Assembly (NCBI RefSeq): GCF_038396785.1
Contig: NZ_CP151087.1
Coordinates: 4,340,001-4,404,000, forward strand
Reading direction: 5' to 3'
Length of the DNA: 64,000 bases
DNA from: Sphingobacterium thalpophilum
GTDB lineage: Bacteria; Bacteroidota; Bacteroidia; Sphingobacteriales; Sphingobacteriaceae
A model generated the notes under the pieces. It made no database searches and was not told the origin of the DNA. It saw nothing but the letters and a program-made list of their open reading frames with translations. The position numbers were made by a program, and so were the translations under genes. Shown here piece after piece: positions 42,727 to 52,348 of the stretch (position 1 is the first letter of the stretch; each line of letters opens with the position of its first letter).

Positions 42727-45700
42727 ATGTATAAGAAGATTTACCAGGTGGGAGTTGCATTAACCGTTATGGCGACGCCAGCATTAGCGCAACAGACAGA
42801 ATGGCAACAAATCAACAAGGCGTACAAAACAGGGATGGAATTGTATGAACGCGGAAAATTTAGTTCTGCTTCTGCCCAATTTGACCGTGTTGAAGCTTTG
42901 CGGACAAAATCCAACTTGCAATTGGACGAAACAGAGGAACTGTCTTTGTTGAAAGAGAACGTACGGTATTATCAAGCGGTTTGCGCACTGGAATTGGGCG
43001 AATCCGATGCCGAAAACCGTTTTCTGAAATACATTAAAGATTTCCCTGTCAGTGCAAATGCTAAAGCGGCTTATTTTCAAATCGGTAAATCCTATTATGC
43101 TAAAAAAGATTATGTTAAGGCCTTAGAGTGGTTTAACAAGATCGATAGCAAAAATTTAGCAGGTAAAGAAAATGTAGAATATCGCTTTAAATATGGATAT
43201 GCTTCCTTTATGACAAAGGATTATAAAACGGCGAAACCATTATTTGAAGGATTGAAAGATCAGAAAACTGAATTTCAGGAAGCTTCAATCTATTATTACG
43301 CGTATCTTTCTTACTTAGACGCCGAGTACAAAACGGCGCTGAATGAATTTGAACGCCTAAATGGATCGAAACAATTCGAAAATAGTTACCCTTATTATAT
43401 TACTGCTTTGTATTTCTTGGATAAACGCTACGACGATGTGTTGGATTATGCGTTGCCAATTTTGTCGCGAACAAAACAAGAAAATGAAACAGAGATGTTT
43501 CGTATTATCGCGGCAACATACTTTATCAAAGGTGATTTAAAAACATCAAAAGAGTATTACGATAAATTTCAGGCACAGGACCAAGGTAAGACCCAGAATA
43601 ATCAGGATAGCTACCAAATCGGTTACATCGCCTACAAGTTGAAAGATTACGATAAAGCGATCACTGAATTGGAAAAAATGACCGATCCAGACGCATATTA
43701 TCAATCTGCGATGATTACCCTAGGGGATGCTTTCTTAAAGAAAGGCAATAAGCAATCTGCTCGTAACGCATTTTTTCGTGCTTCGAAATTGGATTTTGAT
43801 CCAGCAATGCAAGAAGAGGGCTTATTCAACTATGCTAAGCTTTCGTATGAATTGGAATTCCACCAAGTGGCTTTGGCTTCGACACAAGAATACCTGAAAA
43901 CGTACCCAAAATCGAAACGCTTAGAGGAAGCAAAAACTTTGCTTGCTGAAGTATTGTTGAGTACAAAAAACTATCGTGAGGCAGTTGATATTTTGGAATC
44001 TATTCCTAAACGTGGAAAAGAAGCAGACGCTGCTTATCAAAAGGTAACCTACTACAGAGGTTTGGAGTATTATAACGAGCGTGCTTTTGAAAATGCAATT
44101 TCCCTATTCATGCGCTCTGAAGAGTTTCGTTATGACGAGGAAATTTACGCTTTAGCCATCTATTGGAAAGCGGAAGCAATGTACGAAGTGCGTAAATACG
44201 GTGAAGCGGTTACAAATTTCAATAAATTCTTACGCTTGCCGGGAGCTAGCAAAACGGATGTGTATGGGTATGCCAATTACGCGTTAGCCTATGCGGCTTT
44301 CCGTAATGGTAACTACAGCACGGCGGCCAATTACTTCGAGCGTTTCTTAGCGTCTGGTGGTTCGAAAGGAATAGAAATGAATACACGTAATGATGCAATT
44401 GCACGCTTGGGCGATTCTTATTTCTCTTCGAAAAACTACGGCAGAGCATTAACAGAATACAATAAGTTGATCTCTTCTAAAGCGCCTAGTCAGGATTACG
44501 CGTTATTCCAGCGTGGTATTATTCAAGGATTACAAGGGGATAACAACGGTAAAATTTCAACATTGAATGCTGTTATTGCACAATTCCCGAGTTCTAATTA
44601 TGCAGATGATATTGCGTTTGAGATTCCTTACACACGTTTCTTGATGGGAGAAAGTGACCAGGCAATTGCTGGCCTTCAAACAATGGTTGAAAAATATCCG
44701 CGCAGCAGTTATGTGCCACGCGCTTTGGTGACGATTGGTCTGGTTCAGTATAATCAAGATAACAATGATGCTGCATTGGCAACTTTCCAACGTGTAGTCG
44801 ACCAATATGGATCAACAGATGAAGCAAGACAGGCCATGCGATCGATTGAGAACATCTATTTGGATAAAGGCGATGCAACGGGGTATATCAAATATGCAAC
44901 TGGAACAAACTTAGGGGATGCGTCGAAATCTGAGCAAGATTCTCGTTCATTCTCGACTGCCACAACCCTATTCTCCAGAGGAAATTACCAAGGGGCGGTG
45001 GAAGCTGTAAATGCGTATTTCGATAAATTCCCGAAACCAAATCAAGAAAAATATGCGCGTTTTGTTCGTGCTGAAAGTAACGCAGCTTTGGGCAATACAG
45101 AAGATGCACTACATGATTACAATATTATCTTGAATGACTGGACATCTCCTTATACAGAACGCACGTTGATTTCGGTGTCAAATTTGTATTTGAAACAAAA
45201 GAAATATAACGAAGCAACACAGTTGTTGAAAAAGCTGGAGCTTACCTCTGAATACAAGGCTAACTATGGTTTCGCAATAAATAACTTAATGGTTTCTTAC
45301 TTCCAAATTGGAGATTATAAAGAAGCATTAAATTATACCAACGCTGTTAAGAACTACGAAAAATCTTCGGAAGAAGAGATTGCAAATGCCTTCTTATATG
45401 CCGGTAAATGCTATGTGAAGCAGAATAAGAAAGCTGAGGCAATGAAAGAATTCAGTTTAGCTGCATTGAAGAGCCGTACAGTATATGGTGCCGAAGCAAA
45501 ATACAATGTTGCGGTATTACAATTGGAAAATAAACAATACGATGCGTGTATCAAAACAGCAATGGATCTATCCGATAATTTCTCTTCGTACGAATATTGG
45601 GTGGCGAAAAGCTTTATTACCATGGCTGATGCTTATGCAGGTAAGGGAGATTCTTTCCAGGCGAAAGCTACACTTGAATCGATTGTGGATAACTATGATG

Positions 45701-45765
45701 CGAAAGACGATATTTTGCCAGCAGCAAAAGAACGTCTAAATAAATTGAACAACAAAAAGAAATAG
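42727..45765 (+). CDS. periplasmic tetratricopeptide-repeat protein
   Basis: The 1012-residue protein has a signal peptide (likely cut after ALA at residue 21) and is then built almost wholly of TPR-type helical pairs, for example YFQIGKSYYAKKDYVKALEW, EEGLFNYAKLSYELEFHQVA and DALHDYNIILNDW. It should be a large solenoid scaffold in the periplasm or on the inner face of the outer membrane. Similar TPR proteins in Bacteroidota lie beside ExbBD-TonB genes. It is the first gene of the operon, 6 bases before the outer-membrane barrel gene, so the two products probably interact. Confidence 0.85.
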   Translation: MYKKIYQVGVALTVMATPALAQQTEWQQINKAYKTGMELYERGKFSSASAQFDRVEALRTKSNLQLDETEELSLLKENVRYYQAVCALELGESDAENRFLKYIKDFPVSANAKAAYFQIGKSYYAKKDYVKALEWFNKIDSKNLAGKENVEYRFKYGYASFMTKDYKTAKPLFEGLKDQKTEFQEASIYYYAYLSYLDAEYKTALNEFERLNGSKQFENSYPYYITALYFLDKRYDDVLDYALPILSRTKQENETEMFRIIAATYFIKGDLKTSKEYYDKFQAQDQGKTQNNQDSYQIGYIAYKLKDYDKAITELEKMTDPDAYYQSAMITLGDAFLKKGNKQSARNAFFRASKLDFDPAMQEEGLFNYAKLSYELEFHQVALASTQEYLKTYPKSKRLEEAKTLLAEVLLSTKNYREAVDILESIPKRGKEADAAYQKVTYYRGLEYYNERAFENAISLFMRSEEFRYDEEIYALAIYWKAEAMYEVRKYGEAVTNFNKFLRLPGASKTDVYGYANYALAYAAFRNGNYSTAANYFERFLASGGSKGIEMNTRNDAIARLGDSYFSSKNYGRALTEYNKLISSKAPSQDYALFQRGIIQGLQGDNNGKISTLNAVIAQFPSSNYADDIAFEIPYTRFLMGESDQAIAGLQTMVEKYPRSSYVPRALVTIGLVQYNQDNNDAALATFQRVVDQYGSTDEARQAMRSIENIYLDKGDATGYIKYATGTNLGDASKSEQDSRSFSTATTLFSRGNYQGAVEAVNAYFDKFPKPNQEKYARFVRAESNAALGNTEDALHDYNIILNDWTSPYTERTLISVSNLYLKQKKYNEATQLLKKLELTSEYKANYGFAINNLMVSYFQIGDYKEALNYTNAVKNYEKSSEEEIANAFLYAGKCYVKQNKKAEAMKEFSLAALKSRTVYGAEAKYNVAVLQLENKQYDACIKTAMDLSDNFSSYEYWVAKSFITMADAYAGKGDSFQAKATLESIVDNYDAKDDILPAAKERLNKLNNKKK

Positions 45766-45771
45766 GATACA

Positions 45772-47514
45772 ATGAAGAAGTTGCAAAATAGAAACGTGAA
45801 GAAATATACTTTAGCAGCGCTTTTGATGGGCGTGGGATTGAATTCTTTTGCACAGGAAACAGGCAAGAAGAACGATCCTGAGAAACCGGTCACTATCGAT
45901 TCTTTTGATGTTGTTCGTGATTATAAGCCAATTCTTGCGGATGCTGTGAAAATCCGCCGCAGTCCGGATATGACCAATAAAAGAGAATACCAGCCCAAAT
46001 TGTCCTACAACAATATTTTGGACAAGAAATTGGATATCAATACCGGTTTGAAACAATTGAATGTACAGGAGATTCCTTTTGCACAACCTTTTGAACATAG
46101 TAGCAACTATGTCAAATTTGGTATCGGAAACTATAACAGTATATTGGGCGAAGCTTATTTGGCTTCTGAACAGTTTGAAAATACACGATTTGGTTTATTT
46201 GCAAAGCATTTGAGCCAAAAGGGTAATATTGACGGACAGAAGTTCAGTACACAAGATATCGGTATCTTTGGTCGTCGTGTATTGGATGCGGTAACCGTTA
46301 AAGGTACCATCGGATACAATCGTTATGGCACAAACTTCTATGGTCAGACTTTTGATCAATCGGGAACAACCTTGTTGAATACGACTCCGGATAAACAGAC
46401 CTTTACAGATATCTACTTGAATGGAGAGCTGTCAAGTAATGTGGATCCAAAAAATGAGCAAGCCTTAAGCTATTCCGCAAAAGTTGATGGTTATTTGTTT
46501 AAAGACGCTTATAAAGCCAAAGAAAATTCCATCGCATTATCCGGTTATTTGAATAAACGCCTAAGTGCATTCAATGTTGGTGCGAATTTGAGCGTGACAA
46601 TGAATAATGTGAAAGATAGTGCTGAAGTAAAAAATCATTTGGCGGTCATCAATCCATATATTCGTTTTAAGGGCGACAACTATAACGTAACCTTGGGCGC
46701 GAATTTAACTTCTGAATTTGGCGATAGCTCAAGATTCAATATTTTCCCATCCGTAGAAGCTGATTTTGCTTTGGCACCTGAATATATCTCTTTGTTTGCC
46801 GGAATCAATGGCGGAGTGAAGCAAGCTTCTTTCCGTAGTTTCGCTAAAGAAAATCCGTATTTGGCTCCTAATGCTAAAATGATAAACTCGATTGAGAAAA
46901 TGAATGTTTACGCGGGTTTAAAAGGAAATGCTGGCGCAACATTTGGTTATAAAGTAAAGGTATTCTACAAACAGATTGAGGGATTGCCTTTATTTAAAAA
47001 CAGTGCATTTGGCGATAGTCAAAATGGCTATGTTCCTTGGGCTTTTGATGTCGTTTATGACGGCGTGATCAATAAAGCTAAACATATGGGATTGGAAGGA
47101 GAAATCAATGTACGTCTTTCACAACTGGTTAATCTGGGCGGAAAAGTGTATATAGACGATTATAAATTGAGTGATGAGGAAGAAGCTTGGGGATTGCCAA
47201 AATTCCGTATGCAGGCTAATGCACGCTTCAATATCTCCGATAAATTTTTCGTAGATGCTGAACTTTCTACACAAGGCAATACCTATGCGTATATTTATGA
47301 CTATAATGCAGATGGCAGTCGTATTGCCAACAGTGGGCATAAGGCAACAATAGCGTCGTTTGCTGATCTTAATGCAGGCGCAGAATACCGAATCAAAAAA
47401 CAATTTGGTATTTTCGTCAAAGCAAATAACATTTTTGGAAAAGAATACGAACGTTATATGTATTACCCAAGATTGGGCTTTAATGTAATTGGTGGTCTTA
47501 ATTATTCGTTTTAA
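45772..47514 (+). CDS. outer-membrane beta-barrel protein (TonB-dependent-receptor-like, no plug)
   Basis: The 580-residue protein has a signal peptide (about residues 1-27, ending NSFA) and a beta-rich body ending in the aromatic YPRLGFNVIGGLNYSF, the usual C-terminal strand for BAM-dependent insertion. Alternating hydrophobic strands such as NVGANLSVTMNNVKD and KFRMQANARFNISDKFFVDA support a barrel. The N-terminal 85 residues are too short for a plug domain, and no TonB box is evident. It may be a structural partner of the TPR protein rather than an importer. Confidence 0.8.
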   Translation: MKKLQNRNVKKYTLAALLMGVGLNSFAQETGKKNDPEKPVTIDSFDVVRDYKPILADAVKIRRSPDMTNKREYQPKLSYNNILDKKLDINTGLKQLNVQEIPFAQPFEHSSNYVKFGIGNYNSILGEAYLASEQFENTRFGLFAKHLSQKGNIDGQKFSTQDIGIFGRRVLDAVTVKGTIGYNRYGTNFYGQTFDQSGTTLLNTTPDKQTFTDIYLNGELSSNVDPKNEQALSYSAKVDGYLFKDAYKAKENSIALSGYLNKRLSAFNVGANLSVTMNNVKDSAEVKNHLAVINPYIRFKGDNYNVTLGANLTSEFGDSSRFNIFPSVEADFALAPEYISLFAGINGGVKQASFRSFAKENPYLAPNAKMINSIEKMNVYAGLKGNAGATFGYKVKVFYKQIEGLPLFKNSAFGDSQNGYVPWAFDVVYDGVINKAKHMGLEGEINVRLSQLVNLGGKVYIDDYKLSDEEEAWGLPKFRMQANARFNISDKFFVDAELSTQGNTYAYIYDYNADGSRIANSGHKATIASFADLNAGAEYRIKKQFGIFVKANNIFGKEYERYMYYPRLGFNVIGGLNYSF

Positions 47515-47554: not shown

Positions 47555-49003
47555 ATGAATCTAGGCAAAAACATCAATAGTTTATTAAAACGTTATGCGG
47601 AAGTATACGTGCCCGGAATAGGTGTGTTCAAACGAATTCATTCTCCGGCTCAGTTCGATAAACAGAATAATGTATTTTTGCCCCCGATTTCCTACGTCGA
47701 ACTGGACTATTCTGCTCAACAAGGATTTAATATTGTTCATTATATCCAACAACAGGAAAATTTAGGCCTCAATCAGGCACAGCAGATTTTATCGGAAGCT
47801 GTTGATAACCTAAGAGCTGATTTAGGTCAGTTTGGACAGGCTAAACTTGATGATCTTGGCTTATTAATTAGTTATGGCGCAAGTTTAGTCTTCAAACCCC
47901 TGGATCTATCGGGATTCGACTTCCAGCCGGTCACAAATCTTGTTGCACCAGAGATTGAAACAGTCGTTTCTTCTTTGGAAGAAACCAAAGAAGAAGAATT
48001 TACGACCTTAGCGGTTGAAGAAGACCCTGTTGTGGAAGAAGATCCTGTGGTGGAAGCTAATGATAAGGTGGAGCTTGTGGTAGAGTCTATGCCGGATACG
48101 GTGGATCAAGATGAAACGATCGAGGTTGAAGAGGTCAAAGAAGAAACTGAAACAGCACAGGAACCGGTCGTGGTAACGGATCCAGCAGCGGATGAGCTTT
48201 CGCAGGAGACAGCACCAACAAACGATCGTACCGGTCTTGAAGCTGAAGAGTCGTCGTTAGCGCAAAAGGAAACTGAAGAGTTTGAACCTGTGGATACAAC
48301 TGTGATAACTGATAGCAATCATTCGGTTACTCCAGAGGAAGAAATCGCTGAAAAAAAAGAAATCGGTGCTATTGCGTCGGCTAACGCTAATTCAACATAC
48401 GCGCCAAATATCTATGAGGAAGAGCCGCGTAATTCAAATGCGATCTGGTATTGGATGACTGGAATTATTGTGCTGGCAATGGTTGCTGTTGCGGTCGTTT
48501 ACACCAATCCTGCGTTGAAGAATTCGTTATTTGGGCCGACCAAACCTGTTGTAAAAGCGGCAGATACGCTTGTTCAAAAACAGCCGATCATGCCTGCTGA
48601 TACCTTGTCCAATACAATGCAAGCAGATAGTTTAAAGCAAGTCGATTCATTGGCTAAAACTGGTGTGAAAGATTCTGTTAAAAAGACAACAACTGTACCT
48701 GCGACCAATGCGGCAGCAAAATCTCCGGTTTTGGAAGCAAATCCTGTGATCAAAGAGTCTATTCCTGTTGCACAACCCAGATATCAATTGGTAATAGGTT
48801 CTGCAAAGACAATGGCACAAGCAGAGCAGGAAGCCAAGCGTCTTCGGGAAATGGGCTATAAAACAGCACGAGCTGTAGAGGGAAAGTTCAAAAGAAATAG
48901 AAAGAAAATCATCTTAAACACCTACATGACAAAATCGGAGGCAGACCTCGCTAAGAAATCTGTAGAGAAAAAGATTGAAGGTGCTTGGGTAGAAACATTA
49001 TAG
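47555..49003 (+). CDS. CCDC81-type HU-fold/transmembrane/SPOR protein
   Basis: The 482-residue protein has three parts. Residues 1-110 form two CCDC81-like HU domains (MNLGKNINSLLKRYAEVYVP, then VPGIGVFKRIH; then GFNIVHYIQQQENLGLNQAQ). An acidic, low-complexity linker (about 140-290) leads to one transmembrane helix (about 297-317, IWYWMTGIIVLAMVAVAVVY). A C-terminal SPOR domain (about 408-482, RYQLVIGSAKTMAQAEQEAK) should bind denuded septal peptidoglycan. The HU part would lie in the cytoplasm. Family knowledge links such HU proteins to division or chromosome partitioning; direct DNA binding is not proven. Confidence 0.85.
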   Translation: MNLGKNINSLLKRYAEVYVPGIGVFKRIHSPAQFDKQNNVFLPPISYVELDYSAQQGFNIVHYIQQQENLGLNQAQQILSEAVDNLRADLGQFGQAKLDDLGLLISYGASLVFKPLDLSGFDFQPVTNLVAPEIETVVSSLEETKEEEFTTLAVEEDPVVEEDPVVEANDKVELVVESMPDTVDQDETIEVEEVKEETETAQEPVVVTDPAADELSQETAPTNDRTGLEAEESSLAQKETEEFEPVDTTVITDSNHSVTPEEEIAEKKEIGAIASANANSTYAPNIYEEEPRNSNAIWYWMTGIIVLAMVAVAVVYTNPALKNSLFGPTKPVVKAADTLVQKQPIMPADTLSNTMQADSLKQVDSLAKTGVKDSVKKTTTVPATNAAAKSPVLEANPVIKESIPVAQPRYQLVIGSAKTMAQAEQEAKRLREMGYKTARAVEGKFKRNRKKIILNTYMTKSEADLAKKSVEKKIEGAWVETL

Positions 49004-49028: not shown

Positions 49029-49736
49029 ATGTCATTAGTACAAGATACAGCACGGGCTGCTGTGGATTCGTTTAATCAAGCTGCACAACAACCATTACCT
49101 GCTGCTGCGCCTACAGAAAACATGAGTTTGATCGATATGATGATCAAAGGGGGATGGATCATGGTTCCAATCCTATTGTTGTTCTTTATTGGATTGGTTA
49201 TCTTTTTTGAGCGTTATTTGACTATCCGTCGTGCCGCAAAATATGATAACAGCTTAATGTCGCAAGTAAAGGCAAATGTTTTGTCCGGAAATTTGGATTC
49301 GGCATTAGCTGTAGTTCGTTCAAGTAACTCCGCTTTGGGACGTATGTTGCAAAAAGGCTTATTGCGTGTCGGCAGACCGATCAAAGATATTGAAGGAGCG
49401 ATCGAAAACGTGGGTAAATTGGAAGTTGCCAAGTTAGAAAAGAATATCAATATTTTGGGTATTATTGCTGGTATTGCCCCGATGCTTGGTTTCGTAGGTA
49501 CGATCTTTGGAGTAATTAAGATTTTCCACGACGTCGAATTAGCTGGTGGTATTGATATCGCTTCTGTATCTGGTGGTCTATATGTAAAAATGGTGTCTTC
49601 TGCATCAGGTCTTGCGGTGGGTATCTTAGCTTATTTGGGCTACCATATCCTCAATATGATGGTGGAGCGATTGATTTTACGTATGGAAACGGATGCAGTA
49701 GAATTTATTGATTTATTGGATGAACCCGGAAGATAA
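49029..49736 (+). CDS. exbB: MotA/TolQ/ExbB proton channel protein
   Basis: The 235-residue inner-membrane protein has the ExbB layout: an N-terminal hydrophobic helix (about 37-60, GWIMVPILLLFFIGLVIFFE), a cytoplasmic loop, then two helices that line the proton channel (IAGIAPMLGFVGTIFGVIKI and SGLAVGILAYLGYHILNMMV). With ExbD it uses the proton gradient to drive TonB. Its stop codon overlaps the exbD start by one base. Confidence 0.93.
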   Translation: MSLVQDTARAAVDSFNQAAQQPLPAAAPTENMSLIDMMIKGGWIMVPILLLFFIGLVIFFERYLTIRRAAKYDNSLMSQVKANVLSGNLDSALAVVRSSNSALGRMLQKGLLRVGRPIKDIEGAIENVGKLEVAKLEKNINILGIIAGIAPMLGFVGTIFGVIKIFHDVELAGGIDIASVSGGLYVKMVSSASGLAVGILAYLGYHILNMMVERLILRMETDAVEFIDLLDEPGR

Positions 49737-50146
49737 TGAACTTACGAAGTAGAAAAAATAAACCATCTGCGGAAGTACATACTTCAGCGCTGAATGACAT
49801 CATGTTTTTCCTGATGTTGTTCTTCCTGTTGGCTTCTGCAGTTTCTAATCCGCAAGTGGTGAAGCTATTGTTACCAAAGTCAAGTGCGGGAGAACAATCT
49901 GTTGCTAAAAAGACCGTTACGGTATCGATTACAAAAGATTTGGGCTATTTTATTGACAAAACTCCAGTTCCCATTGAAGGATTGGAAGCTGCAATTCAAT
50001 CGCAAATGGCTGCGGGTGAGGAAGTGACCATTATGCTCTATGTCGATAATACGGTTCCCATTCAAAATGTTATTTCTGTAATGGATGTCGCTAATCGATT
50101 GAAGATTAAAGTGGTATTGGCAACAGAGCCAAAAAAAGATAAATAG
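49736..50146 (+). CDS. exbD: ExbD/TolR-type biopolymer transport protein
   Basis: The 136-residue protein has one N-terminal membrane helix preceded by the signature SALNDIMFFLMLFFLLASA, in which the conserved aspartate (ND) carries the proton. The periplasmic domain (about 45-136) has the usual fold (VTVSITKDLGYFIDKTPVP). It is coupled to exbB by a 1-base overlap and followed by the TonB-like gene. Confidence 0.92.
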   Translation: MNLRSRKNKPSAEVHTSALNDIMFFLMLFFLLASAVSNPQVVKLLLPKSSAGEQSVAKKTVTVSITKDLGYFIDKTPVPIEGLEAAIQSQMAAGEEVTIMLYVDNTVPIQNVISVMDVANRLKIKVVLATEPKKDK

Positions 50147-50204: not shown

Positions 50205-51032
50205 ATGAGATATCACCTTCAACATGAAGAAAATAATTTCCCCAAAGCATTGGGGATATCGACTTTGGTCATGGCATCGTTGCTCTTGATTGGATTTTTT
50301 GTTGTTTTTAAATCTCAGGCACCTGATGAATATGGAATGGGGGGAATGATCGTCAATTACGGTACTTCACCTGAGGGAATGGGAGATGACTATATGAGTG
50401 TTGAGGAACCATCGGTGGACCCCAACGCCAATAATGAACGCCCTGACCGTATTGATCCTGTTGAAACACCTACCCCAACTCCAACGCAGCAAGTTGCGGA
50501 GAAAGCGGTTGTCACACAGGATTTAGAAGATGCCCCTGCGGTAACAAAAACGGAAAAGAAGGTCGTTTCAAAAGCACCGGAAACAACCAAAGCTGTAAAA
50601 GAAGTGGCACCACAGGCCAATGCCAAAGCGCTTTTTAAAGGCAATAAAAATAACGGCACTGGGGCTGGTGATGGTACAGGGACAACTCCTGGAAATCAGG
50701 GTTCCAAACTGGGTGATCCTTTAGCAAGTAACTACGGCGAAGGGGGATCTGGAAATGGTAACATGATGTTGTCTATTGAAAACCGAAGTTTTACACAACG
50801 ACCAAGTATCGACGATAATGGACAGCAAGCAGGAAAGGTTGCTGTGGAGTTTAGAGTGAACAAGCAAGGGGTTATCACTTATGCGCGTGCTGGTGTAAAA
50901 GGAACGACGATTACCGATCCATCCTTGTTGGAGAAATGTGAGCGTGCTGTACGTGGCGCTCGGCTAAACCAATTGCCAAATGCTCCCGACTCCCAAACAG
51001 GACGGATTGTATTCAATTTTAGATTAAGATAA
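50205..51032 (+). CDS. TonB-like energy transducer
   Basis: The 275-residue protein has one N-terminal helix (about 16-36), then a Pro/Thr- and Lys/Ala-rich stretch (VETPTPTPTQQVAEKAVVTQ), a Gly/Asn-rich segment (GNKNNGTGAGDGTGTTPGN), and a TonB C-terminal domain (about 185-275, GKVAVEFRVNKQGVITYARA). It should link ExbBD motion to outer-membrane proteins. The linker is more glycine-rich than in E. coli TonB. It is 58 bases after exbD and 11 before folC. Confidence 0.85.
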   Translation: MRYHLQHEENNFPKALGISTLVMASLLLIGFFVVFKSQAPDEYGMGGMIVNYGTSPEGMGDDYMSVEEPSVDPNANNERPDRIDPVETPTPTPTQQVAEKAVVTQDLEDAPAVTKTEKKVVSKAPETTKAVKEVAPQANAKALFKGNKNNGTGAGDGTGTTPGNQGSKLGDPLASNYGEGGSGNGNMMLSIENRSFTQRPSIDDNGQQAGKVAVEFRVNKQGVITYARAGVKGTTITDPSLLEKCERAVRGARLNQLPNAPDSQTGRIVFNFRLR

Positions 51033-51043
51033 AAATCATTCAC

Positions 51044-52348
51044 ATGAATGCTTATAATGAGGCAATCGAGTATCTGTATACTCGATTGCCTATGTTTACA
51101 AGGGATGGCGCCTCTGCCTTCAAAAAAGACCTTGACAATACCATCAAACTTTGCGCTGCTTTGGACAACCCACAGCGAAAATTCAAAACATTACATATTG
51201 CCGGTACAAACGGAAAGGGATCGACCTCCCACATGTTGGCCGCTATTTTGGCCGAGGCAGGATATAAGACAGGTCTCTATACTTCACCACATTTACTGGA
51301 TTTCAGAGAACGTATTCGTGTCAATGGTCAGTTATGTGAGAAAGAATTTGTTGTTGATTTTGTCAATACCCATCGCGAGCTTATAGAAGAAGTCAGTCCA
51401 TCGTTTTTCGAAATTACTGTAGCCATGGCTTTTGATTATTTCGAGAAGAATAAGGTTGATATCGCTGTCATTGAAGTCGGCCTTGGCGGGCGTTTGGACA
51501 GCACCAATATTATTCAGCCTTTGCTGTCGGTAATTACCAATATCGGTTTTGATCACATGAATCTTCTTGGTAATACACTGGTGGAAATTGCTGCTGAGAA
51601 GGCCGGAATTATCAAAAGAAATACACCTGTCGTTATTTCGGAATATGCTGAAGAGACAGCAGCTGTGTTTTTGGATAAAGCAGCGATCGAGCATGCACCG
51701 ATCCAATTCGCTTCCGATAAGTATGCCACGAAAATGCTGGGCGTGGACCAAGATTATTTGACGGTACAAGCGAGGGATACTGCAAGTCATTCAGCAGACT
51801 TTCAACTGGATTTAAAAGGCTCTTATCAGGTCAAGAATCTCGCCGGCGTCCTGTTAGCTGTGGATGAGTTACGTCAACAGGGCTTTGAGATCAGTGATCA
51901 ACATGTGCATCAAGCGCTAAAAAATGTGCAGGCAACCACAGGAATTCAAGGCCGATGGCAACAATTGTCTAAGGATCCATTTATCATCTGTGATACGGGG
52001 CACAATGAGGACGGAATTCATGAAGTGCTCAAAAATCTGGCTACAACCGCTTATGATAAATTGCACTTTGTGATAGGGGCCATGCGCGATAAGGATTTAT
52101 CACATATGTTGCCTTATCTACCCAAGGATGCAACCTACTATTTCTCTGCTCCGGATATTCCGCGTGCAATGCCATCCGAGGAGCTGCGGAAAGAAGCTAT
52201 GGAATTTGGTCTAACGGGACTTGATTATGCATCGGTAGGAGCTGCGTTTGATGCAGCAAAAGAAGCGTATCAACAAGGGAACCTTATTTTTGTTGGCGGA
52301 AGCAATTTTGTTGTTGCGGAAGTGCTTGCTCGTTTGACGCAGGAATAA
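51044..52348 (+). CDS. folC: folylpolyglutamate synthase/dihydrofolate synthase
   Basis: The 434-residue Mur-ligase-family enzyme adds glutamate to folates (and often also makes dihydrofolate). The ATP-binding GTNGKGST is at residues 54-61, followed by YTSPHLLDFRERIRVNG and IEVGLGGRLDSTNII. CDTGHNEDGIHEVL and FVIGAMRDKDLSHML mark the C-terminal domain. It is the last gene of the envelope operon, apparently by position rather than function. Confidence 0.95.
   Translation: MNAYNEAIEYLYTRLPMFTRDGASAFKKDLDNTIKLCAALDNPQRKFKTLHIAGTNGKGSTSHMLAAILAEAGYKTGLYTSPHLLDFRERIRVNGQLCEKEFVVDFVNTHRELIEEVSPSFFEITVAMAFDYFEKNKVDIAVIEVGLGGRLDSTNIIQPLLSVITNIGFDHMNLLGNTLVEIAAEKAGIIKRNTPVVISEYAEETAAVFLDKAAIEHAPIQFASDKYATKMLGVDQDYLTVQARDTASHSADFQLDLKGSYQVKNLAGVLLAVDELRQQGFEISDQHVHQALKNVQATTGIQGRWQQLSKDPFIICDTGHNEDGIHEVLKNLATTAYDKLHFVIGAMRDKDLSHMLPYLPKDATYYFSAPDIPRAMPSEELRKEAMEFGLTGLDYASVGAAFDAAKEAYQQGNLIFVGGSNFVVAEVLARLTQE

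Follow-up and report, generated by a model that had tools for sequence, protein, structure and literature searches.

What role does a protein with an HU-like fold, a membrane helix and a SPOR domain play in an operon with ExbB, ExbD and a TonB-like gene? The question was raised by a gene at positions 47555..49003 (plus strand) of the 64,000-nucleotide stretch analysed here (the window), which comes from the closed 5.75-Mb genome of Sphingobacterium thalpophilum. The gene is a single 482-residue open reading frame with an ATG start. A sequence-only reading had placed it correctly and had proposed that its product could tether the nucleoid (or another ligand) to the division septum and that its link to an ExbBD-TonB unit is unusual. 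Our analysis leads to a different proposal, to which we give an even chance: that the protein is the wall-binding, inner-membrane, FtsN-like subunit of an old Tol-Pal-like trans-envelope machine of Bacteroidota.

Pfam, AlphaFold2 and sequence inspection together show tandem CCDC81-type HU units, a single membrane helix and, at the C-terminus, SPOR. HU-CCDC81_bac_1 (PF18174) matched residues 2-46 with 28.5 bits, above its cut-off of 26, and HU-CCDC81_bac_2 (PF18175) matched residues 61-117 with 33.9 bits (E 2.9e-8), slightly below its cut-off of 35. SPOR (PF05036) at residues 409-479 (48779..48991) scored 20.7 bits against a cut-off of 21, and 24.3, above the cut-off, in a genome-wide SPOR search. 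An AlphaFold2 model of residues 1-135, built from 40 sequences (mean pLDDT 90.4), shows two HU-type units in a single chain followed by a disordered tail past residue ~117, so the suggested HU similarity of residues 1-110 holds in both profile and predicted fold. Unit 1 (residues 1-56, 47555..47722) has a beta-arm, and unit 2 (residues 57-117, 47723..47905) has no long arm. The transmembrane helix was placed at residues ~296-316 (48440..48502; best 19-residue hydropathy 2.28). All these features lie on the plus strand. The protein belongs to the described HU-CCDC81_bac / SPOR domain family. Profile searches of the whole source genome found one copy of HU-CCDC81_bac_1, two of SPOR, two ExbB-type channels and one ordinary HU.

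A topology with the HU units inside and SPOR outside had also been suggested. It is favoured across the family because, in the 132 of 161 distinct members with a helix over threshold, lysine plus arginine was higher on the N-terminal side in 68, lower in 31 and equal in 33; the window's protein taken by itself is a tie (1 versus 1). A SPOR profile match was found in 138 of the 161 HU proteins; among those 161, the f3 proteins and part of the f2 proteins had no such match (family labels such as f1 and f2 come from our tool; f1 is the window's family, taken as Sphingobacteriaceae). Beyond the HU units, a crude pattern picked out a motif of FG[LM] type in 83 of the 161, and three of three f8 proteins that lack HU keep FGLP or YGLP near the N-terminus (L089:9634-10395, L090:9653-10486 and L091:9410-10132). 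This is possibly a cytoplasmic docking motif.

The fold of the HU module recalls a eukaryotic one. A Foldseek search with the HU model returned nothing at E <=0.001; the top match was 8snb_1K at 4.3e-3, followed by many HU proteins. VIA-align, for which Z near 8 may reflect merely a common arrangement according to the tool's own note, aligned the model with ciliary doublet chains 8v3l_A (Z 8.9 over 107 residues), 8snb_1K (Z 7.8, 119) and 9e2g_2N (Z 5.8, 120), with a Mycoplasma gliding-ATPase chain (Z 7.8, 104), with single-chain IHF (Z ~5 over 84-85 residues) and with HU chains (Z ~6, ~68 residues). CCDC81b and a CCDC81 homologue are listed among microtubule inner proteins in two papers (PMC11961760, PMC10105768), from which we infer that the three ciliary chains are CCDC81 homologues. 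A PDB sequence-profile search with the HU region gave no CCDC81-named chain among the 33 sequences listed at E <=1, nearly all of which are HU or IHF matched over about half of the region; it is therefore the fold that carries the ciliary link. Among the open-licence CCDC81 titles listed, none was that of a bacterial paper.

The operon around the gene stands as described by gene calls and Pfam, and its two previously unnamed members could be added. In the window, genes for a TPR protein, a barrel, the HU/SPOR protein, ExbB, ExbD, a TonB/TolA-like protein and folC all run in the plus direction, separated from 5' to 3' by 6, 40 and 25 bases, a 1-base overlap, and 58 and 11 bases; pyrB ends 382 bases upstream of the TPR gene. 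The two additions are a periplasmic TPR protein of 1012 residues (42727..45765) whose N-terminus looks like a signal peptide by eye, and a 580-residue, plugless outer-membrane barrel of TonB-receptor type (45772..47514). Downstream lie an ExbB/TolQ-type channel subunit (49029..49736; PF01618, 77.4 bits), which represents the genome's second such system, an ExbD/TolR-type subunit (49736..50146; PF02472, 91.6 bits) and a TonB/TolA-like transducer (50205..51032; NCBIfam tonB_Cterm, 16.3 bits, below the cut-off of 27.1). The last gene, folC (51044..52348; TIGR01499, 371.9 bits), is probably a co-directional neighbour outside the machine.

The TPR protein matched many Pfam TPR families and scored 160.7 bits against NCBIfam tol_pal_ybgF (cut-off 90.1), a generic TPR signal spread over 6 stretches. 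Its gene and the Sphingobacterium siyangense counterpart share 99% identity. A place in type IX secretion was rejected because the NCBIfam PorW/SprE score was 44 bits where the cut-off is 250. Of 42 long loci in which a barrel is labelled, a tally by reading gave 40 with the TPR gene directly 5' of it and two with the TPR gene one gene off; no TPR gene was labelled next to the barrel in f88, f100, f105, f22 and f24 loci. AlphaFold2 modelled the barrel with a mean pLDDT of 75.5, with strands spanning residues 113-579 and residues 23-110 below 50. By title, each of the 50 matches that Foldseek listed is a TonB-dependent receptor (best E 2.6e-18), and no Pfam family matched at E 0.1. The models thus predict a TonB-receptor fold with no plug and a disordered N-terminus. 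Within that N-terminus a conserved motif, FDVVRDYKPILADAVKIR (45904..45957, plus strand), resembles a TonB box by eye; searched for in residues 1-160, the pattern [FYAS][KQR]P.L..A.K occurs in 91 of 130 distinct barrels and is missing from the f9 and f10 examples.

The operon's ExbB appears distinct from the other ExbB of the source genome. A profile of the operon type gave 270 bits to a Bacteroides ExbB and 96 bits to the genome's own other ExbB, and a tree separates the two sorts on long branches with an open fork. Against the NCBIfam tolQ equivalog the operon ExbB scored 60 bits, far below the cut-off of 221; the channel-pair families PF01618 and PF02472 are common to TolQ/TolR and ExbB/ExbD. 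The window's ExbD has an aspartate near the start of its membrane helix, and so does each of 113 distinct relatives, as found by pattern in 110 and by eye in the remaining 3. The transducer profile matched TonB and TolA chains weakly, at E 0.025-0.045 with unrelated chains from 0.08 up, and the gene at the transducer position in locus L243 matched PF03544 above its cut-off. The motor box of TonB and TolA carries a histidine. By a crude window that can take in flanks, a histidine was found in the transducer helix region in 8 of 80 sequences from the window's family and near kin versus 18 of 34 others, and the helix of the window's own transducer has no motor-box histidine; the scarcity speaks against the window's family having a standard motor box. 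Elsewhere in the genome, the other ExbB precedes two ExbD-like genes (L103, G000:C1:3769000-3783000), likely the canonical Ton set. In Bacteroides finegoldii the order is pdxJ-ExbB-ExbD-'TolA', the third gene of the set being annotated TolA; its sequence NZ_OY725947.1 (L107), labelled a plasmid, carries mdh, recG, ndk and tpiA as well as the ExbBD-TolA set and looks like a piece of chromosome despite the label.

The link between the HU/SPOR gene and the ExbBD-TonB unit turned out not to be unusual: besides the window's family, where it holds, 9 of 56 Bacteroidia families show it, and so do 11 families from outside the class. All ten f1 loci besides the window (L032-L041) have the order TPR-barrel-HU-ExbB-ExbD-TonB-folC, one of them with an extra open reading frame before folC. 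We also took the best 80 of 564 records by TPR, chiefly Sphingobacteriaceae, a sample that leans to close kin because of how it was chosen. There the chain is contiguous to ExbB in 71, to the transducer in 69 and throughout in 58. Five of the other nine end within ~220 bases of a contig end and four break after the barrel (L139, L141, L149 and L162), with HU and ExbB slightly further along in L139 and L162. The order returns in two of two f9 loci. None of three f10 loci has ExbBD beside HU; the transducer is present in two of them. TPR-barrel-HU is present in eight of eight f2 loci with no SPOR profile match, L042 and L093 being SPOR-like by eye. The HU profile found nothing in four of four f8 genomes, and in three f8 loci a helix/SPOR-like gene without HU lies between the barrel and ExbB; our own SPOR profile matches two of these three genes, and Pfam SPOR gives 19.5 and 18.3 bits, below its cut-off, for two and nothing for the third. 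A curious one-off link thus gives way to an old, near-universal gene set.

Near-universal does not mean contiguous. Of 159 Bacteroidia genomes, 151 have a barrel match at E 0.001 and 145 at 1e-10, mostly one per genome; HU was detected in 144 at E 0.001 (132 at 1e-10) and operon-type ExbB, at ~206 bits or more, in 150, yet the three usually lie apart. Counting the places listed (143 of 151 barrel, 136 of 144 HU and 150 of 158 any-ExbB genomes), barrel and HU adjoin in 22 of 125 genomes (11 of 55 families), HU and ExbB in 16 of 131 (9 of 56 families) and barrel and ExbB in 15 of 140. None of the three adjacencies was seen in 128 of 159 genomes, a figure that includes genomes with a part missing or a place not listed. 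Around stand-alone operon-type ExbB genes (L209-L225), ExbB, ExbD and transducer follow one another on one strand in 13 of 17 loci. Pfam HU-CCDC81_bac_1 alone matched 90 of 395 phylum genomes, fewer than our own HU profile, and some weak matches of both are probably ordinary HU. Three f89 genomes (G428, G462 and G491) keep HU with no barrel match and no operon-type ExbB, possibly a joint loss; the HU protein of G428 (L208) has SPOR. A 4HBT thioesterase gene adjoins the HU gene in one f4 locus (L070:5445-9134), together with dprA, and in one f3 locus (L043:8240-8761).

Outside the class, barrel matches weaken to between E 1e-4 and 1e-19 and include many ordinary receptors, so claims about these outgroups rest on gene order. 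Barrel, SPOR gene, ExbB and ExbD stand in a row in 16 of 22 selected loci, from 11 families (f15, f22, f24, f26, f30, f31, f35, f36, f46, f52 and f54). The 22 are L064-L066 and L227-L246 minus L240, a further HU place of an already represented genome, and because they were picked for a barrel or HU match the proportion is no rate. HU was undetected in the f15 and f31 loci. The exceptions are L064, an f18 genome with the HU/SPOR gene alone and no such operon alongside; L066 and L230, with HU and SPOR and no ExbBD; L237, with no SPOR gene; and L238 and L244, with no ExbBD. In f34, TPR, barrel, ExbB, ExbD and transducer occur with no SPOR gene. Genes at the HU/SPOR position outside the class scored 33.6-58.5 bits for SPOR in the seven scanned, and for HU2 38.0 bits in one and 22.3, below the cut-off, in another. 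HU1 is a separate small gene directly before the SPOR gene in L227, L228, L229, L231, L232, L235, L236, L239 and L066; in L065 its stop overlaps the next start, and L230 and L238 have a small HU gene there too. Since the two units are separate adjacent genes in outgroups, the module may stem from an HU heterodimer fused in Bacteroidia. FtsK is a septal DNA pump. A Pfam-matched FtsK gene lies four genes upstream of HU1 in both L228 and L235 (one f22 and one f24 locus); between the two stand a gene with no assignment, one for a membrane protein of LPG-synthase type and the barrel, in that order, with FtsK and the LPG-synthase-type gene at L228:8764-12982 and L235:7825-11991 on the minus strand.

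Does this operon occur where Tol-Pal does not? Chlorobi have tol-pal according to one study (PMC7391070), and no identifiable tol-pal loci exist in Bacteroidetes according to a 2025 survey (PMC12204202). Of 296 phylum genomes, 19 gave a TolB_N match, and 10 of these belong to f18. Within the class one genome has TolB_N alone (G238, a 309-residue open reading frame), as does the control Bacteroides ihuae; the source genome has no TolB_N match, only a propeller fragment at E 6.7e-11. Searched with an f18 query, full-length TolB was present in 25 of 25 f18 genomes at E 7.1e-159 or better and in none of 55 others, 37 of which gave only partial matches of ~106 bits or less and 32 of which have operon-type ExbB. 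At E 1e-50, operon-type ExbB was present in 170 of 296 phylum genomes and absent from 64 of 64 f18 genomes. The 126 without it include 62 non-f18 genomes from 22 families; f13 and f38 scores are intermediate (1e-45 to 1e-48). None of the 23 searched non-f18 genomes without operon-type ExbB has full-length TolB, so one does not simply replace the other everywhere. Three of four f18 loci contain tolQ, tolR, tolB, pal and a cpoB-like gene, and the fourth ends after tolB. Chlorobi, having tol-pal, would fit f18.

SPOR domains bind peptidoglycan without stem peptides, as at division sites. In the mechanism we propose, ExbB, ExbD and the TonB/TolA-like protein would form a proton-driven transducer, and the SPOR tail would hold the machine at peptidoglycan stripped of stem peptides. 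The transducer would then exert a pull on the barrel, plugless and of receptor type, along with the TPR protein that partners it in the periplasm, and the outer membrane would thereby follow the closing septum. In the cytoplasm, an HU pseudo-dimer binding a protein would complete an FtsN-like layout of cytoplasmic binder, one helix and SPOR. The analysis establishes the domains, the predicted folds, the order and distribution of the genes and, in the genomes searched, the non-overlap with full-length TolB; from these we infer a location at the septum, a force acting on the barrel, the kind of ligand that the HU units bind and a role in outer-membrane constriction. In favour of a Tol-Pal-like machine we count the conserved order, the wide distribution across the class, the reported lack of tol-pal loci in Bacteroidetes, the HU-less f8 versions, the Bacteroides ExbB-ExbD-TolA set, the plugless barrel, the non-overlap with TolB and the nearby FtsK; against it, the 128 of 159 genomes without adjacency, the scarcity of motor-box histidine, the missing SPOR in f3 and part of f2, f34, the genomes with neither ExbB nor full-length TolB, TolB_N in G238 and B. 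ihuae, and L064. A bolder version appears doubtful to us, at best one chance among several: an undescribed, phylum-wide Tol-Pal replacement in which a septal motor pulls the plugless barrel and the HU module, a former DNA clamp and kin to the eukaryotic CCDC81 module, binds FtsZ or another divisome protein.

If the HU units bind DNA while SPOR holds the septum, chromosome partition would be coupled to division, and a similar nucleoid-tether prediction was reportedly made by Burroughs et al. in 2017. The HU fold is genuine, one single-chain IHF match covers residues 1-122 (Z 5.2), FtsK lies within the same cluster in two outgroup loci (L228 and L235), dprA adjoins the HU gene in the f4 locus, and some outgroup HU1 genes retain a basic-looking arm by eye. 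The charge of the module points the other way. Residues 1-117 average a net -3.6 and are positive in none of 40 aligned sequences, the window's included, against +7 for the source genome's true HU, whose arm is +4; the beta-arm of the HU part averages +0.7, reaches +3 or more in 3 of 40, and lacks the tip proline and basic run of HU. Over a longer matched region, which often takes in acidic linker, the 161 family proteins average -4.9 and only 15 are positive. The f8, f15 and f31 versions have no detectable HU, and f3 has no SPOR. Judged from sequence, these charges would argue against HU-like DNA binding, and the earlier suggestion of a nucleoid tether is left doubtful and weakly supported; we regard it as unlikely and give more weight to an HU module that binds protein as part of a Tol-Pal-like machine. 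The two units would form a cytoplasmic pseudo-dimer, more likely gripping a protein of the divisome or cytoskeleton than DNA.

Two further readings keep the operon and change its task. It could be a dedicated nutrient-uptake Ton system with the barrel as transporter, the TPR protein as accessory and the SPOR/HU protein as a simple wall anchor, as the receptor fold of the barrel and the weak TonB resemblance of the transducer might suggest. However, the barrel has no plug and occurs about once in nearly every genome of the class, unlike receptors that vary with diet, and a separate ExbB with two ExbD genes is already at hand, which makes this explanation improbable. Alternatively, the machine might tether the envelope all round the cell, in general outer membrane-wall linkage or lipid homeostasis, rather than at the septum. 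Clades without SPOR retain the other genes, and tol-pal operons carry a thioesterase gene, ybgC, that the 4HBT gene beside HU in the f3 and f4 loci recalls; the SPOR match in most HU proteins and also in HU-less versions speaks against such a role, to which we assign a low probability. The Tol-Pal-like machine acting at division is therefore the reading we carry forward: the operon is a candidate Tol-Pal counterpart of the kind so far missing in Bacteroidota, where it would assist inward constriction of the outer membrane at division, and supplies candidate parts for outer-membrane attachment during division in a closed Sphingobacterium genome.

Compared with known systems, the operon resembles Tol-Pal in its channel pair, putative transducer, TPR protein, outer-membrane partner and candidate septal targeting, and operon-type ExbB shows no overlap with full-length TolB in the 80 genomes searched. 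It differs in having no TolB, in a plugless receptor-type barrel as outer-membrane partner, and in presumably binding the wall through an inner-membrane SPOR protein instead of Pal. PorE, whose one chain combines parts resembling CpoB, TolB, a carboxypeptidase and Pal, has likewise been proposed to fill the tol-pal gap, as an outer membrane-wall tether in Bacteroidetes (PMC12204202); it differs in being one lipoprotein, and the available part of that survey makes no mention of the HU/SPOR-ExbBD operon. In open-licence literature, judged by titles and abstract openings, we found no description of the operon as a conserved system. FtsN shares one helix, a linker, a C-terminal SPOR and a candidate cytoplasmic binder, the cytoplasmic part of the window's protein being two HU units and not a short tail. 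With the HU-CCDC81_bac / SPOR proteins (PF18174, PF18175 and PF05036) it shares domain content and order as a member, and their tie to a TPR-barrel-ExbBD-transducer operon did not appear in the literature read. CCDC81-type ciliary microtubule inner proteins are alike in the whole tandem-HU fold and differ in being eukaryotic and in the microtubule lumen; with the operon, a domain found within the cilia of eukaryotes gains a bacterial context.
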